Source: Marinosulfonomonas sp. (GTDB taxonomy: Bacteria; Pseudomonadota; Alphaproteobacteria; Rhodobacterales; Rhodobacteraceae). From it: 44,190 nt of DNA. The DNA lies in assembly GCA_030625325.1 (NCBI GenBank), contig DAOURA010000002.1, forward strand, positions 1 through 44,190, given 5' to 3'. The notes beneath the pieces are model-generated. The model was not told the DNA's origin and made no database searches. It saw only the letters and a list, made by a program, of their open reading frames with translations. The translations under genes were made by a program, and so were the position numbers. Below, in pieces: positions 14,804-29,046 of this stretch; within the stretch, counting starts at the first letter, position 1, and each line of letters begins with the position of its first letter.

Positions 14804-15850
14804 ATGGGACTATTCATTTTACGCCGGGTCGGGATGATGATCCTGACGGCACTTTGCCTGACGTTTGTGGTATTTTTCCTGACGAACCTTTACCCGAACC
14901 TTGAAAAGCTGGCCAAAAGTCAGGGCAACCAACGCATGTCAGACGAAGCGGTTCAAAGCTGGCTGGGCAATCGTGGCTATCTGCAATCAACGCCGGTGAA
15001 ATATGGCGAATGGCTGGGCGTGTTGCCGGGGTTCACCCATACAAATGATGACGGCAAAACCACCGGGCGCTGCATTGATGCACGCAAACCCGTGGATACC
15101 CCGCCCCGTTTTTGCGGCGTTGTTCAGGGCGACTGGGGCTATTCAACCGTGTTCAAAGAAGACGTCAGCACCATCATCGCACGCCGCCTTGGCAAAACCG
15201 GCAAACTGATGTTCTGGGTGATGGTGCTTATGGTGCCATCGGCCCTGATCCTGGGGGTGCTTGCCGGTATGCGCGAAGGCTCCAAACTGGACCGCACCCT
15301 GTCCACCGTTTCAATCACCACCACCGCCACCCCGGAATATGTATCCGGCGTGATCCTGATTTCAATCTTTGCATCCTCTGCCTTTGGATTGAAATGGTTC
15401 AAAGGCACCGCCACATCGGCCATGGATAACGCAACATTTGAAAACTTTTTCCTGCCGGTGCTGACCATTGCCCTGTATGGCATCGGCTATATCGCCCGCA
15501 TGACCCGCGCCAGCATGGCCGAAGTGATGACATCCCAATATATCCGCACCGCCCGCCTGAAAGGCGTCAGCTTTCCAAACATCGTGATAAAACACGCCCT
15601 TCGAAATGCACTGATCGCACCGTTTACCGTGATTATGTTGCAATTTCCGTGGCTGTTGAACGGCGTGGTAATTGTTGAAACCCTGTTTAACTACAAGGGC
15701 TTTGGCTGGACGCTTGTACAGGCCGCCGGCAACAATGACATTGAACTGCTGCTGGCCAGTTCAGTGGTGGCGGTGTTTGTCGTGCTTGTTACACAGCTGA
15801 TATCGGACGTTGGCTATGTCTTTTTGAACCCACGCATTCGGATAGCTTAA
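14804..15850 (+). CDS. ABC importer permease, DppB type
   Basis: First inner-membrane subunit of the importer. It starts MGLFILRRVGMMIL, the usual DppB/OppB N-terminal helix, followed by a periplasmic region of about 100 aa that contains two cysteines (RCIDARKPV, PRFCGVVQ) and then the core permease helices. The coupling-helix EAA-type segment is seen around ARLKGVSFPNIVIKHALRNA, and the C-terminus VGYVFLNPRIRIA is typical. The frame is open from 14768, but AGGGG precedes the ATG at 14804, giving 348 aa. It is 12 bases from the next permease gene. Confidence 0.92.
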   Translation: MGLFILRRVGMMILTALCLTFVVFFLTNLYPNLEKLAKSQGNQRMSDEAVQSWLGNRGYLQSTPVKYGEWLGVLPGFTHTNDDGKTTGRCIDARKPVDTPPRFCGVVQGDWGYSTVFKEDVSTIIARRLGKTGKLMFWVMVLMVPSALILGVLAGMREGSKLDRTLSTVSITTTATPEYVSGVILISIFASSAFGLKWFKGTATSAMDNATFENFFLPVLTIALYGIGYIARMTRASMAEVMTSQYIRTARLKGVSFPNIVIKHALRNALIAPFTVIMLQFPWLLNGVVIVETLFNYKGFGWTLVQAAGNNDIELLLASSVVAVFVVLVTQLISDVGYVFLNPRIRIA

Positions 15851-25119: not shown

Positions 25120-26427
25120 ATGGACCTGACGACCTTTGAATTTGACACGGCCTTTTGGGTGACATCCGGGGCTATTTTGACCTTATTGATCCTGTCTGGG
25201 TTTTTTTCGGGCTCTGAAACGGCCCTGACAGTTGCATCCAGACCCAAGCTGCGCACACGGGCCGCCAAAGGGTCAAAGGGTGCACAGCGCGCACTGGACA
25301 TAACAGACGACAAAGAACGCCTGATCGGTTCGATTTTGTTGGGTAACAACCTGACCAATATTCTGGCCGCGTCTTTGGCCACGGCCCTGTTTACCCGAAT
25401 GTTTGGTGACAATGGGGTGGCGCTGGCCACGCTGATCATGACCTTGCTGGTGCTGGTCTTTGCTGAGGTGCTGCCAAAATCATACGCCATCACCAACCCT
25501 GAAAATGCCGCGATGAATGTCTCTCGTCTGATCCGGGCGATCATCTTTTTGTTTTCGCCCTTTGTGGCGGCTGTACGGGCATTGGTACGCGGAATTCTTT
25601 GGGTTTTCGGTGTGCGCACCGATCCCGGCGGTCAAATGCTGGCGGTTCGCGAAGAAATCGCCGGCGCTATTTCCCTTGGCCACGACGAAGGCGCGGTTGA
25701 AAAAGAAGACCGCGACCGCCTGCTAGGTGCGCTTGATCTTGGGGATCGCTCAATCGAAGAAATCATGCGCCACCGCTCAGAAATTGAAATGATTGATGTG
25801 GCCCTGCCCCCGCAGGACATATTGGAAAAGGTACTAAAGTCGGCCCATACCCGGATACCAATTTTTAAGGGTAACCCGGAAAATATTATTGGGGTGCTGC
25901 ACGCAAAGGATTTGCTGCGCGCCATGTATGCCCGCACCCTTGGTGCTGCGGTCAGTGATAGTCCGTTTGAAGACTTTGACGTATTCGAAGTGGCCATGCC
26001 ACCCTATTTTGTACCGGAAACCACGCCGCTGGATGACCAGATGCGCCAATTTCTGCACCGTCAAACCCATTTTGCGCTAGTGGTTGATGAATACGGTGTC
26101 TTGCAGGGGCTGATCACGCTGGAAGACATCCTTGAAGAAATAGTTGGCGAAATTACCGACGAATTTGACCCCGACAGCGAACTGGAACTGGTTCGTTCCG
26201 AAGATGGTGAATGGACGGTGGATGGTGCCACAACGATACGCGATCTGAACCGCGCAGCCGACTGGAACCTGCCCGATGAAGAAGCGATCACCATTGCCGG
26301 CCTGATCATCCATGAGGCCCAGTTGATCCCGACCCAGGGGCAGGTGTTTTCGTTCCATAATTTCCGGTTTGAGGTACTTGAACGCAAGGCAAACCGGCTG
26401 ACCCGGTTACGCATTCGCCCGCTTTAG
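25120..26427 (+). CDS. CNNM-domain/CBS-pair protein (HlyC/CorC family)
   Basis: Inner-membrane protein of the family linked to magnesium/cobalt efflux. In 435 aa it has an N-terminal CNNM (DUF21) domain with four hydrophobic segments ([13 protein letters not shown] is the family motif), a tandem CBS pair at about 210-335 ([40 protein letters not shown]), and a C-terminal CorC_HlyC domain ([20 protein letters not shown]). It follows xerD after 84 bases containing a weak GAAAAC/GTTTTC dyad (25044-25061). Its stop overlaps that of the convergent HerA-like gene. Transport function is inferred from the family. Confidence 0.92.
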
Positions 26428-26432
26428 CGGGC
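26417..26432. terminator. Hairpin over two overlapping convergent stop codons
   Basis: GCCCGC (26417-26422), loop TTTA, GCGGGC (26427-26432). The loop and first base of the right arm contain the TAG of the plus-strand gene and the TAA of the minus-strand gene. No T-run follows on either strand, so it is a symmetrical hairpin at both 3' ends rather than a classical terminator. Confidence 0.45.
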
Positions 26433-27968
26433 CTTGAACAGCCCCCCAAGGATGCCGCGAACGATCCGTCGCCCCGTGGTTCCCTTTAGTTCCTTGATCA
26501 CAACTTTGGCCACCGATTCACCAAAGCTGTCGCTGGCCTTTTTGCGTGATCTTGACCGGGGCGATTTGCTGCTTGCACCGCTGTAACGGCGGGCCTTGCG
26601 AAATTCCCGTTCTTTTTCTTCCAGGCGATCTTCTTCATCCTCGGCGATCTCTGCGGCTTTGGCGGCGGCCTCGGCGCGTGCCTTCAACCGCTCAAACGCG
26701 GAAACGCGATCAATCAGCGTTTCGTATTTTCCGGCCACGGGGGACGCGGCAATCACCGCTTTTCTTTCTGCGTCACTAATCGGGCCCAGTTGCGATGATG
26801 GGGGGCGGATCAGGGTGCGTTCAACCACACCGGGCGCACCTTTTCGCACCAACATTGATGTGACGGCTTCCCCAACGCCAACTTCTTTAATGGCGTCTTC
26901 CGTGGAAAAGCGCGGGTTGTCCCGGTATGTTTCGGCGGCCCGGCGCAGGTTTTTCTGATCCCGCGCGGTAAAGGCGCGCAAGGCATGCTGCACCCGGTTG
27001 CCAAGTTGTCCCAATATACCATCGGGAACATCCGCCGGGTTTTGGGTGACAAAAAACACACCAACCCCTTTGGAACGGATCAGGCGGGCGACCTGTTCAA
27101 CCTTTTTGACCAGTGCGCGCGGGGCATCATCAAACAAAAGGTGGGCCTCATCAAAGAAGAACACCAGCTTTGGTTTGTCCGGATCACCAATTTCCGGCAA
27201 CTCTTCGAATAGCTCCGACAGCAACCACAACAAAAAGGTCGCGTATAAGCGTGGTGAACTCATCAATTTGTCAGATGCCAATATCGAAATCTGCCCGCGC
27301 CCGTCCAGATCCGTGCGCATCAGATCGCTTAGTTCCAGCGCGGGTTCGCCAAATAAATTACCGCCACCCTGATTTTCCAGAACCAGAAGCGAGCGTTGAA
27401 TTGCCCCAACAGATGAGCCGCTGACGTTACCATATCGCAATGACAGATCTTTGCCATTTTGCCCGACCCAGACCAACAGGGCCTGCAAATCCTTTAGGTC
27501 CAGCAATGGCAAGCCGTCATCATCAGCCACCCGAAAGGCAATGTTCAACACCCCTTCCTGCACGTCAGATAATTCCAACAGTCGGGACAACAACAGCGGG
27601 CCCATTTCACTAACGGTGGTGCGAACCGGATGGCCTGACTTTCCAAACAAATCCCAGAACATCACCGGGAAACTTTCGTACCCGTAATCTGCAAAGCGAA
27701 TAGTTTCCGCGCGTTTCATGAACGCGTCATGTAATTTGAAATCGGCAGAGCCCGCCACCGCAAGGCCGGCCAGATCCCCCTTAACGTCCGACAGAAATAC
27801 CGGCACACCGGCGCTTGAAAACCCCTCAGCCAAAATTTGCAGGGTCACAGTTTTACCTGTTCCCGTGGCACCGGCGATCAATCCGTGCCTGTTGGCGTAT
27901 TTTAACAGCAGCCCCTGCGCCTGGGCATATCCTTTGCCACCACCACCAACAAAAATCTGATCAGCCAA
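26424..27968 (-). CDS. HerA-like ATPase, DUF853 family
   Basis: A 514-aa P-loop ATPase of the HerA/FtsK clade (DUF853; E. coli YjgR-like). Walker A is GATGTGKT at residues 33-40, Walker [12 protein letters not shown] near 270, with [20 protein letters not shown] as the sensor/arginine-finger region. A charged coiled-coil follows ([20 protein letters not shown]), then a basic C-terminal tail. Its role is not established; DNA translocation is inferred from the clade. The start is TTG, with AGGAG 9 bases upstream and the conserved FVGGGG strand right after it. No partner nuclease (NurA) is encoded nearby. Confidence 0.9.
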
Positions 27969-27994: not shown

Positions 27995-28023
27995 TTGCTC
28001 GCGCCACAATACAAAATTAATAT
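27995..28023 (+). promoter_or_regulatory. Candidate small-RNA promoter
   Basis: TTGCTC (27995-28000) and TAATAT (28018-28023) are separated by exactly 17 bases in the AT-rich start of the 416-base gap. The predicted start is about 28030. The downstream unit has no ORF but ends in a strong terminator. Confidence 0.4.
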
Positions 28024-28029
28024 ATCTGC

Positions 28030-28127
28030 GCCAGTATAACCCAGCCCCCGAAAGCGTGTTCTTGCTTTACGTGGTGCAAATCCTCCCTGTTTAACTGGCC
28101 GCACCAAATACTGGTGCGGTTTTTTTT
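28030..28127 (+). ncRNA. Candidate small regulatory RNA (about 98 nt)
   Basis: This stretch has a promoter-like pair upstream, no ORF, and a near-perfect intrinsic terminator at its end, yet no plus-strand gene reads into it: the upstream genes are a minus-strand ATPase and a plus-strand gene that ended 1.5 kb earlier. Predicted structure: a hairpin at about 28049-28071 (CGAAAGC paired with GCTTTACG, one bulge), then an unpaired segment containing ATCCTCCCTG, whose CCTCCC is complementary to a ribosome-binding site core, then the terminator with eight Ts. That layout is typical of Hfq-dependent trans-acting RNAs. The family is not recognised; tRNA and SRP RNA folds were considered and do not fit. 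Confidence 0.5.
28099..28127 (+). terminator. Strong intrinsic terminator
   Basis: CCGCACCA (28099-28106), loop AATAC, TGGTGCGG (28112-28119), then eight Ts (28120-28127). The perfect 8-bp stem plus U-tail is the clearest terminator in the window, and it has no protein-coding gene upstream on its strand. Confidence 0.85.
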
Positions 28128-28223
28128 GTTTCTGTCAGATGCACTGTTGACCGGCAGAGGCAAAAAATATAACTTTTGCGCCACTAAGTCGGCCAGTCCG
28201 ACAGGGAGAAATAATAATAATAA

Positions 28224-28254
28224 AGGAAAAGGGCCCCCTTGCGGCCCTTTTCCT
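28224..28254 (-). terminator. 12-bp inverted repeat with T-rich flank on the minus strand
   Basis: AGGAAAAGGGCC (28224-28235), a 7-base loop, and its exact complement (28243-28254). On the minus strand the stem is followed by TTTATTATTATTATTT, so it most resembles a leftward terminator. On the plus strand it lies in the leader region of ialB and could attenuate it. What leftward transcript it would stop is unclear. The rest of the 27969-28384 gap holds the candidate RNA and a TTGACC/TATAAC pair with 15-base spacing at 28147-28173. Confidence 0.5.
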
Positions 28255-28384
28255 AATTGCCGGTCCGCACTCCGGCACCCGGCGGAATTCCCCGGAAACC
28301 CGTGAAATCTGAAAAATCCTGTCTGACACGGCTGCTTTGTTGTGCTAAGCCCGGTCTGAAATTAACTGCAGACACGGATAAATT

Positions 28385-28999
28385 ATGACACACCGACGAA
28401 TACTGGCTTTGACATTTGCAACACTTATGCTGGCATTGCCACATGGTGCTGTTGCGCAGGACACAACCACATCCGAAACCACGGCACAATCAGGGGCATC
28501 CGACCTTTCCCTTGGGCAAACCGTTCTTCAGGTTGGCACAATTTACACCCGTGACACCTATGGCGACTGGGAAGTGCGTTGTTCCAAAACCGCCGATGGC
28601 AAAGACCCCTGCCGCCTTTACCAACTGATGCAAGATGACAAAGGAAATTCAGTAGCCGAGATCAACCTGTTTAACCTGCCCTCAGGTCAGGCGGCGGTTG
28701 CCGGTGCCACCATTGCGGTGCCACTGGAAACTTTGCTGACTGAACAACTGACCCTTGGCATTGATGATGGCAACGCCAAGCGCTACCCCTACAGCTGGTG
28801 CTCATCCTTGGGCTGTTACGCCCGGATCGGCCTGACGGCGGCTGATATTGCAAACTTTGAACGGGGTGCCACGGGAACGGTTTCCATTGTTCCGGTTGCA
28901 GCACCTGACGCCCGGGTTGCCCTGACAATGTCCCTGAAGGGGTTCACCAGCGGGTTCGCCGCAGTGAAAAAATCAAACGCGGCTATTGCTGCCAACTGA
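28385..28999 (+). CDS. IalB-family (invasion-associated locus B) periplasmic protein
   Basis: A 204-aa secreted protein with a signal peptide (ILALTFATLMLALPHGAVAQ), a low-complexity Thr/Ser linker to about residue 40, and an IalB domain from GTIYTRDTYGDWEVRC onward. Four cysteines (in WEVRC, KDPCRLY, SWCSSLGCY) are placed as in the family and probably form disulphides. The family name comes from Bartonella, but members are widespread in free-living alphaproteobacteria, where their role is unknown; no virulence function should be read from the name. It stands alone with its own terminator at 29025. Confidence 0.9.
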   Translation: MTHRRILALTFATLMLALPHGAVAQDTTTSETTAQSGASDLSLGQTVLQVGTIYTRDTYGDWEVRCSKTADGKDPCRLYQLMQDDKGNSVAEINLFNLPSGQAAVAGATIAVPLETLLTEQLTLGIDDGNAKRYPYSWCSSLGCYARIGLTAADIANFERGATGTVSIVPVAAPDARVALTMSLKGFTSGFAAVKKSNAAIAAN

Positions 29000-29024
29000 T
29001 CAACATTAATATCGTGACATCAGG

Positions 29025-29046
29025 CCGCCCCAAGGGGCGGTCTTTT
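29025..29046 (+). terminator. Intrinsic terminator of ialB
   Basis: CCGCCCC (29025-29031), AA, GGGGCGG (29034-29040), then TCTTTTT. In practice the loop opens to about 6 bases. It sits 26 bases after the ialB stop, and its T-run touches the stop of the convergent ketoacyl synthase gene. Confidence 0.8.

Follow-up and report, generated by a model that had tools for sequence, protein, structure and literature searches.

Between a herA-like ATPase gene and ialB, in a 44,190-nt stretch of DNA from Marinosulfonomonas sp. (Rhodobacteraceae; hereafter the window, meaning the whole stretch that was analysed), the list of open reading frames and a domain search leave an intergenic segment in which we place two candidate small-RNA genes, both on the plus strand (Table 1). 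The first carries an anti-Shine-Dalgarno seed, and the core of the second is complementary to the region of that seed. The genome encodes Hfq (115 bits), on which the first sRNA probably acts. Elsewhere in the window, the Rfam family Cis52_sRNA (RF02647, Ruegeria) matches positions 15427–15605 of the minus strand with 81.7 bits, above its gathering score.

Table 1. Features of the herA–ialB segment and its flanks, in window coordinates
Feature	Position	Strand	Evidence or remark
herA-like ATPase (HerA_C)	26424–27968	−	PF05872, 736 bits; divergent, upstream of the first sRNA
Conserved upstream element ATACAAA..TTAA..GCCAGTAT	28009–28040	+	79-region alignment
First sRNA (SorX/alpha-r8-like)	28041–28127 (approximate ends)	+	alignment A1 (window and 57 relatives)
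5′ hairpin of the first sRNA (predicted)	28044–28077	+	−12.4 kcal/mol, z −2.9 in the window
Seed region AAUCCUCCCUGUUUAACUGGCCG	28079–28101	+	anti-Shine-Dalgarno seed; stretch that complements the second RNA
Intrinsic terminator of the first sRNA	28097–28127	+	hairpin 28097–28121 (10 pairs, loop of 5); eight T at 28120–28127
Promoter of the second RNA	28147–28175	+	TTGACC 28147–28152; −10 TAACTT 28170–28175, overlapping TATAAC (28168)
Second RNA (proposed sponge)	28178–28258 (approximate ends)	+	alignment A2; model R1
Sponge core GUCGGCCAGUCCGACAGGGAG	28188–28208	+	small hairpin and AGGGAG; complementary to the SorX-type seed region
Terminator hairpin of the second RNA	28224–28254	+	only four T after the GC stem on the plus strand in the window
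Promoter-like CTGACA..GCTA	28323–28347	+	before ialB
ialB (invasion associated locus B family)	28385–28999	+	PF06776; downstream neighbor of the second RNA

The first candidate had been proposed as an Hfq-type small RNA of about 98 nt in a sequence-only reading of the window, and several of its parts withstand computation. As that reading held, no ORF of at least 60 aa lies within 28040–28113 of the plus strand (a 63-aa GTG ORF begins at 28114, within the terminator), the terminator is present, and no plus-strand gene upstream accounts for it, herA being oppositely oriented. The seed octamer CCTCCCTG (28082–28089), said to be unpaired, is open at 8 of 8 nt in the predicted fold of 28040–28127 and at 7 of 8 in that of 28030–28127, the latter fold also being better than those of dinucleotide shuffles (z −3.1). 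Its claim to be the strongest terminator of the window is doubtful, since a terminator scan ranks two others ahead (28254–28224 on the minus strand with 12 pairs, and 29022–29043 on the plus strand with 9 pairs, 7 of them G-C). The promoter pair that was named (TTGCTC at 27995 and TAATAT at 28018) exists as letters, but a consensus scan does not return it and it is not conserved: among the 81 regions, the window counted, 4 have TTGCTC and 1 has TAATAT. What the relatives share is a different element, with the consensus ATACAAA..TTAACCnTT..TGCCAGTnT in a 79-row alignment, which is probably the promoter of the first sRNA. With this element rather than TTGCTC/TAATAT as the guide, the 5′ end is likely near 28045 by our estimate, which points to an RNA of about 83 nt and speaks against the 98 nt first given. 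The TTAACC-like part of the conserved element resembles what we take to be a CtrA half-site, in which case the first sRNA would be under CtrA control.

Relatives were collected through herA, which has a match at E ≤ 1e-60 in 84 of the 100 family genomes; regions upstream of it were taken from 80 places, with genomes having split or partial herA (G009, G013 and G111) omitted, and the window brought the set to 81. Exact CCTCCCTG lies 40–330 nt upstream of herA in 66 of these 81 regions (the window counted) and its reversed 8-mer in none, while a run of at least five T follows at the expected distance in 67 of 71 regions and TTAA[CT] precedes the seed by 45–100 nt in 67 of 71 (7 of 71 for the reversed motif). 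The earlier reading had named the absence of its promoter, seed and terminator from close relatives as grounds for giving up the candidate; seed and terminator are kept and its promoter pair is not. Of 70 first-sRNA regions, 58 entered alignment A1, the others being dropped for odd ends or inserts, and CCUCCCUG is invariant across all 58, which were chosen by resemblance to the seed stretch. Because the rows of A1, like those of the corresponding alignment A2 of the second RNA, were ended at the T run, T conservation in them arises by construction and we rely on the separate T-run counts instead. Five of the eight pairs of the terminator stem are retained despite two-sided changes in at least one sequence, the 5′ hairpin has a mean z of −2.6 over 68 sequences (below −1 in 60 of them), and at least 6 of the 8 seed nucleotides are unpaired in 53 of 68 predicted folds. 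On this comparative evidence the first candidate looks like a real, conserved, intergenic sRNA gene, its CCUCCCUG anti-Shine-Dalgarno seed and intrinsic terminator as first described, with the promoter, the length and, as follows, the family comparison to be replaced.

No Rfam family matches the first sRNA in the window at gathering thresholds, and by Rfam score it belongs to neither of its closest relatives, both of which align to it when E-value thresholds are used: SorX (RF02784; 21.2 bits against a cut-off of 46.6) and suhB/MmgR alpha-r8 (RF00519; 22.0 bits against 41), with both of which it has the CCUCCCU seed and terminator in common. At least one herA-linked relative (in G007) does pass the Rfam SorX cut-off, with 48.6 bits. 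Our first-sRNA model R2, which gives 57.9 bits at 28040–28127 in the window (a sequence included in building it), scores SorX-type loci of other genomes at 29–51 bits, and in Rhodobacter sphaeroides (G075 of the family sample, recognized by coordinates and Rfam matches) it finds SorX (L165) at 31.7 and SorY (L163) at 39.3 bits. The SorX and SorY matches there, at 2,598,225 and 1,632,641, agree with the 5′ ends of 2,598,224 and 1,632,642 given in the part of the source available to us (PMC6238624). SorX and SorY, although kept as separate Rfam families, look like siblings themselves, with a common seed and layout: the SorX model scores SorY at 43.6 bits, slightly under its cut-off, while SorY's own family (RF02651) scores it at 115 bits.

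The first sRNA is thus best called a sibling of SorX and SorY in an alpha-r8-like class. Like SorX, it has the CCUCCCUGUU seed directly before a GC-rich terminator and CUGGCC after the seed. Unlike SorX as described in the accessible parts of two reports (PMC6238624, PMC8625941), it is intergenic with its own upstream element; SorX is released by RNase E from the 3′ UTR of an ompR-type gene, and the gene upstream here is divergent herA. With SorY, which according to the same portion of PMC6238624 has its own promoter, it shares the seed and terminator layout, but it lies at a different locus and SorY forms a separate Rfam family. With alpha-r8, MmgR and SisA-D it shares a 5′ hairpin, an unpaired UCCUCCCU and a terminator; of the alpha-r8 10-mer UUUCCUCCCU, the window retains 8 of 10 positions (AAUCCUCCCU) and the A1 consensus 9 of 10 (CUUCCUCCCU). 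Most alpha-r8 genes adjoin an FGase gene (PMC12559287, in the part seen), a usual though not universal neighbor whose place is taken here by herA and ialB. The CcsR group with which the first sRNA had originally been compared (CcsR1–4, stress sRNAs of R. sphaeroides) stands further off than SorX and suhB/MmgR at the scores given above. The CCUCCUCCC motif of CcsR is absent from the window's first sRNA. CcsR RNAs form a cluster derived from the ccaF1 3′ UTR (PMC8625941, as far as available), whereas the neighbors here are herA and ialB, and we drop the relationship because SorX, SorY and alpha-r8 fit better.

The second element, missed by the earlier reading, was noticed about 50 nt downstream of the first sRNA when regions lacking the seed were inspected. 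Its gene, spanning 28147–28258 overall, consists of a TTGAC promoter, the core, a linker and a GC hairpin, the last of which the terminator scan of the window lists on the minus strand only. The core AAGTCGGCCAGTCCGACAGGGAG occurs within 4 substitutions in 69 of the 81 herA-upstream regions; one of these matches (G005) is probably due to chance, there being no match to R1, our model of the second RNA, in that genome. Of loci chosen for their core and nothing else, 72 of 72 have a TTGAC-N16-18-TA promoter, 68 of them with a spacer of 17 nt, and a run of at least four T follows the core in 63 of 72, against 10 of 72 for a control stretch. Alignment A2 holds 55 of the 69 core regions, odd-ended or insert-bearing rows having been left out. 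Within the core, AGGGAG is partly unpaired in the predicted folds (a mean of 3.6 of 6 nt, and at least 5 nt in 17 of 68). That both elements are conserved DNA features, such as terminators or protein sites, that yield no regulatory RNA seems to us highly improbable, as it is at odds with the conserved promoter-to-terminator layout, with stem pairs that change on both sides and with how clearly the first element is related to SorX and SorY, both expressed sRNAs.

Model R1, which scores the window (again a sequence included in its making) at 68.9 bits over 28178–28252, matches 90 of the 100 family genomes at E ≤ 1e-3 and reaches at least 32 bits in 86. At E ≤ 1e-4 it matches 184 of 196 genomes of the order; 176 of these 196, all from the family, were new to the search, and 165 of the 176 match. 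Eight of the twelve order genomes lacking a match belong to one genus (g23); a member of it, G023, has both seed and core altered, and loss of the second RNA or its co-divergence with the seed is possible in this genus. In a class-wide sample of 240 genomes, nine match at E ≤ 1e-3, three of them of the same family; we judge the other six (up to 35.6 bits) to be false, as the two best (L197 and L198) are without the core and in the remaining four no stretch comes within 4 edits of the core, so that in this sample R1 finds nothing convincing outside the family. An exact-pattern scan of named genomes returned at least 118 stretches, with 80 loci among the matches listed. Of those 80, 74 match R1 at E ≤ 1e-5 and 73 score at least 36.8 bits, while a locus in Ancylobacter (L257; 30.0 bits) and the six R1-negative loci were taken as chance; carriers among the matches listed include species of Ruegeria, Roseovarius, Leisingera, Tritonibacter, Shimia, Jannaschia and Gemmobacter. 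The core occurs once in the window's own genome, which is incomplete.

In R. sphaeroides R1 places the second RNA on the minus strand at 1,426,604–1,426,534, roughly the locus of an sRNA that is presumably RSs1368, on which the literature searched yielded no paper. The first sRNA lies on the same strand there, at about 1,426,765–1,426,674. The second RNA matches nothing in Rfam 15 near any gathering score and is a new family by Rfam 15 and the literature searched, though it may have been listed before as an anonymous sRNA. No title or opening of an abstract in that literature names such an RNA pair, and an earlier description is possible. The conserved intergenic sRNAs in the accessible portions of two sRNA surveys, one of R. 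pomeroyi (PMC4809877) and one of P. denitrificans (PMC5107571), could not be placed at the herA–ialB locus.

The gene order bears on whether the second RNA is an RNA in its own right. Of 88 loci, 87 have ialB on the same strand no more than 700 nt downstream of it, including loci where herA lies elsewhere, and R. sphaeroides retains the order first RNA, second RNA, ialB behind a catalase gene that replaces herA. In 17 further family loci, mostly without adjoining herA, R2 scores at least 35 bits upstream of the second RNA in 12, and it matches at E ≤ 1e-5 in 60 of the 80 listed pattern-scan loci; we prefer these counts to the 81 of 88 loci in which a loose pattern (6 edits in 21) places a seed upstream of the core. 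The constancy of ialB, together with the short run of four T that follows the hairpin on the plus strand of the window, would suit a reading in which the second RNA is mainly the ialB 5′ leader, with transcription frequently stopping at the hairpin and SorX-type pairing altering read-through or ialB mRNA stability; ialB would then be a cis target and any sponging a by-product, in the way that UpsM derives from the mraZ leader. Against this, a promoter-like motif separates the hairpin from ialB in 29 of 88 loci, the window among them, and in 0 of 88 shuffled ones, and genomes with the second RNA tend to have SorX at another locus. Given the regular linkage to ialB and a separate motif in 29 of 88 loci, we give a leader role some weight, though we regard it as the less probable account by a good distance. 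The reading we prefer, in which the second RNA is a separately promoted sponge, draws on its complementarity to the seed.

The core is nearly the reverse complement of UCCUCCCUGU..ACUGGCC in the first RNA. In the window the predicted duplex has 16 pairs around a 2-nt internal loop at −30.6 kcal/mol, whereas mononucleotide shuffling of the core, repeated 2000 times, gives a mean of −11 kcal/mol (sd 3) and never a value as low. The R. sphaeroides second RNA is predicted to form 12 contiguous pairs with SorX and 14 with SorY, and its cofold gains, computed without a shuffle control, are −19.6 kcal/mol with SorX, −17.0 with SorY and −14.4 with its own first sRNA; likewise without a shuffle control, the window's genome gives −22.2 kcal/mol for the SorX-type sRNA on contig C102 against −18.1 for the neighboring first sRNA. 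Over 64 genomes, own pairs average −33.2 against −32.7 kcal/mol for swapped ones, with none of 5000 permutations as low, shared ancestry being uncorrected. Where the first RNA has ACUU for ACUG, the second has AAGU in 7 of 9 cases, compared with 3 of the 72 others (Fisher p 1.2e-6 from the 7/2/3/69 table of 81 pairs, for a motif picked after seeing the sequences and with shared ancestry uncorrected). These observations also weigh on an alternative in which the first sRNA is the sole regulator and the second an mRNA-targeting sRNA with a purine-rich seed, their complementarity reflecting a shared anti-SD/SD vocabulary. AGGGAG is indeed like a ribosome-binding site, but the complement exceeds a Shine-Dalgarno sequence in the window, and with SorX and SorY, and takes in the ACUGGCC half beside the terminator, where it covaries; we hold this alternative to be quite unlikely.

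Across the 100 family genomes, in which SorX exceeds its Rfam cut-off in 80 and suhB/MmgR in 10, 79 have both the second RNA and SorX above cut-off, 9 the second RNA only, 1 SorX only and 11 neither (p 1.3e-8, uncorrected for phylogeny). Two genomes with R1 matches of 24.4 and 24.6 bits (G029 and G114) were entered here as lacking the second RNA; entered as carriers, they change p to 7.9e-7. All five genomes without a SorX match at E ≤ 1 lack the second RNA, these two by our judging their 24-bit matches false. The neighboring first RNA was not found beside a retained second RNA in four genomes (G008 and G118, by reading; G064 and G090, which also have no R2 match on the same strand), and all four have SorX over the cut-off, as expected if the second RNA serves the whole class. 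The seed is altered in some genomes that bear the second RNA (e.g., G036, G115). The second RNA is absent from 5 of the 10 suhB/MmgR-positive genomes (G005, G009, G018, G033 and G078) and present in the other 5. A search for mRNA targets found ACAGGGAGGA-N-ATG 189 times and the control TGTGGGAGGA-N-ATG 49 times in 61 family genomes, with solute-binding proteins, judged by eye, after about 10 of 29 of the former and 6 of 17 of the latter, and no ACAGGGAGGA-N-ATG site in the window's genome; since a purine-rich Shine-Dalgarno context alone favors ACAGGGAGGA-N-ATG, the search gives no usable signal and was set aside.

We posit, with some confidence, that the locus holds two tandem, separately promoted sRNA genes, an anti-SD sRNA and a sponge for its siblings across the family. 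The first sRNA (about 28045–28127), once transcribed, would pair its unpaired CCUCCCUG seed with purine-rich ribosome-binding sites to repress translation, it and its siblings blocking such sites via CUCCCUG. The core of the second RNA (about 28178–28258) is predicted to pair over some 16–20 nt with the first sRNA in its seed region, and would also pair in the cell with the other SorX-type sRNAs of the genome, masking the seed or triggering sRNA decay and so releasing the target mRNAs. As AGGGAG is only partly open in the predicted folds, a chaperone or entry via the CCAGU loop may be needed. Since the proposed sponge sits beside one of its own partners, read-through of the first terminator would yield a self-pairing transcript. 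The broader proposition, that a family-wide, usually single-copy sponge absent from Rfam, which arose in Rhodobacteraceae independently of CrfA and is kept beside one of its own partners, controls the whole SorX/SorY-type anti-SD class of that family, we consider an evenly balanced one. SorX and SorY have so far been studied as separate stress sRNAs of R. sphaeroides, a spermidine transporter subunit being the reported target of SorX; our results suggest that they share their seed with a third sibling, absent from Rfam and the literature searched, and that a single conserved antagonist acts against all three. The adjacent antisense-like RNA alters the likely biology of the first sRNA.

Among known systems, StsR (RSs0827) of R. 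sphaeroides resembles the proposed sponge in that it is an sRNA whose pairing partner, UpsM, is an sRNA too (PMC8307010, in the part available). If RSs numbers track the chromosome, the position of StsR would be near 0.85 Mb, against 1.4265 Mb for the sponge; a search with the core pattern, 3 mismatches being allowed, gives a single site in that genome, at 1.4266 Mb, and R2 has no match above 7.2 bits within 835–875 kb. From the interpolated position and the single core site we consider it unlikely that StsR is the sponge. The mechanism itself is proposed by analogy with CrfA and SisA-D of Caulobacter. As described in the accessible part of the CrfA report, CrfA sponges the alpha-r8 sRNAs SisA-D, pairing with their shared UUUCCUCCCU core, lowering those sRNAs and freeing their targets, and this sponging is demonstrated by experiment (PMC12559287). 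The second RNA shows the conserved complementarity to an sRNA family's seed that is expected of bacterial sponges, and like CrfA of Caulobacter crescentus it would be a separate sRNA with a purine-rich segment that pairs with a seed common to sibling sRNAs. Unlike CrfA as described there, its gene adjoins one of its predicted partners and its predicted pairing extends past the 10-mer into CUGGCC. The sponge mechanism is a variant of a known sRNA-sponge principle; if true, Caulobacter would not be the only alphaproteobacterial lineage with a dedicated sponge for anti-SD sRNAs, the second being Rhodobacteraceae, to which the marine roseobacters belong.
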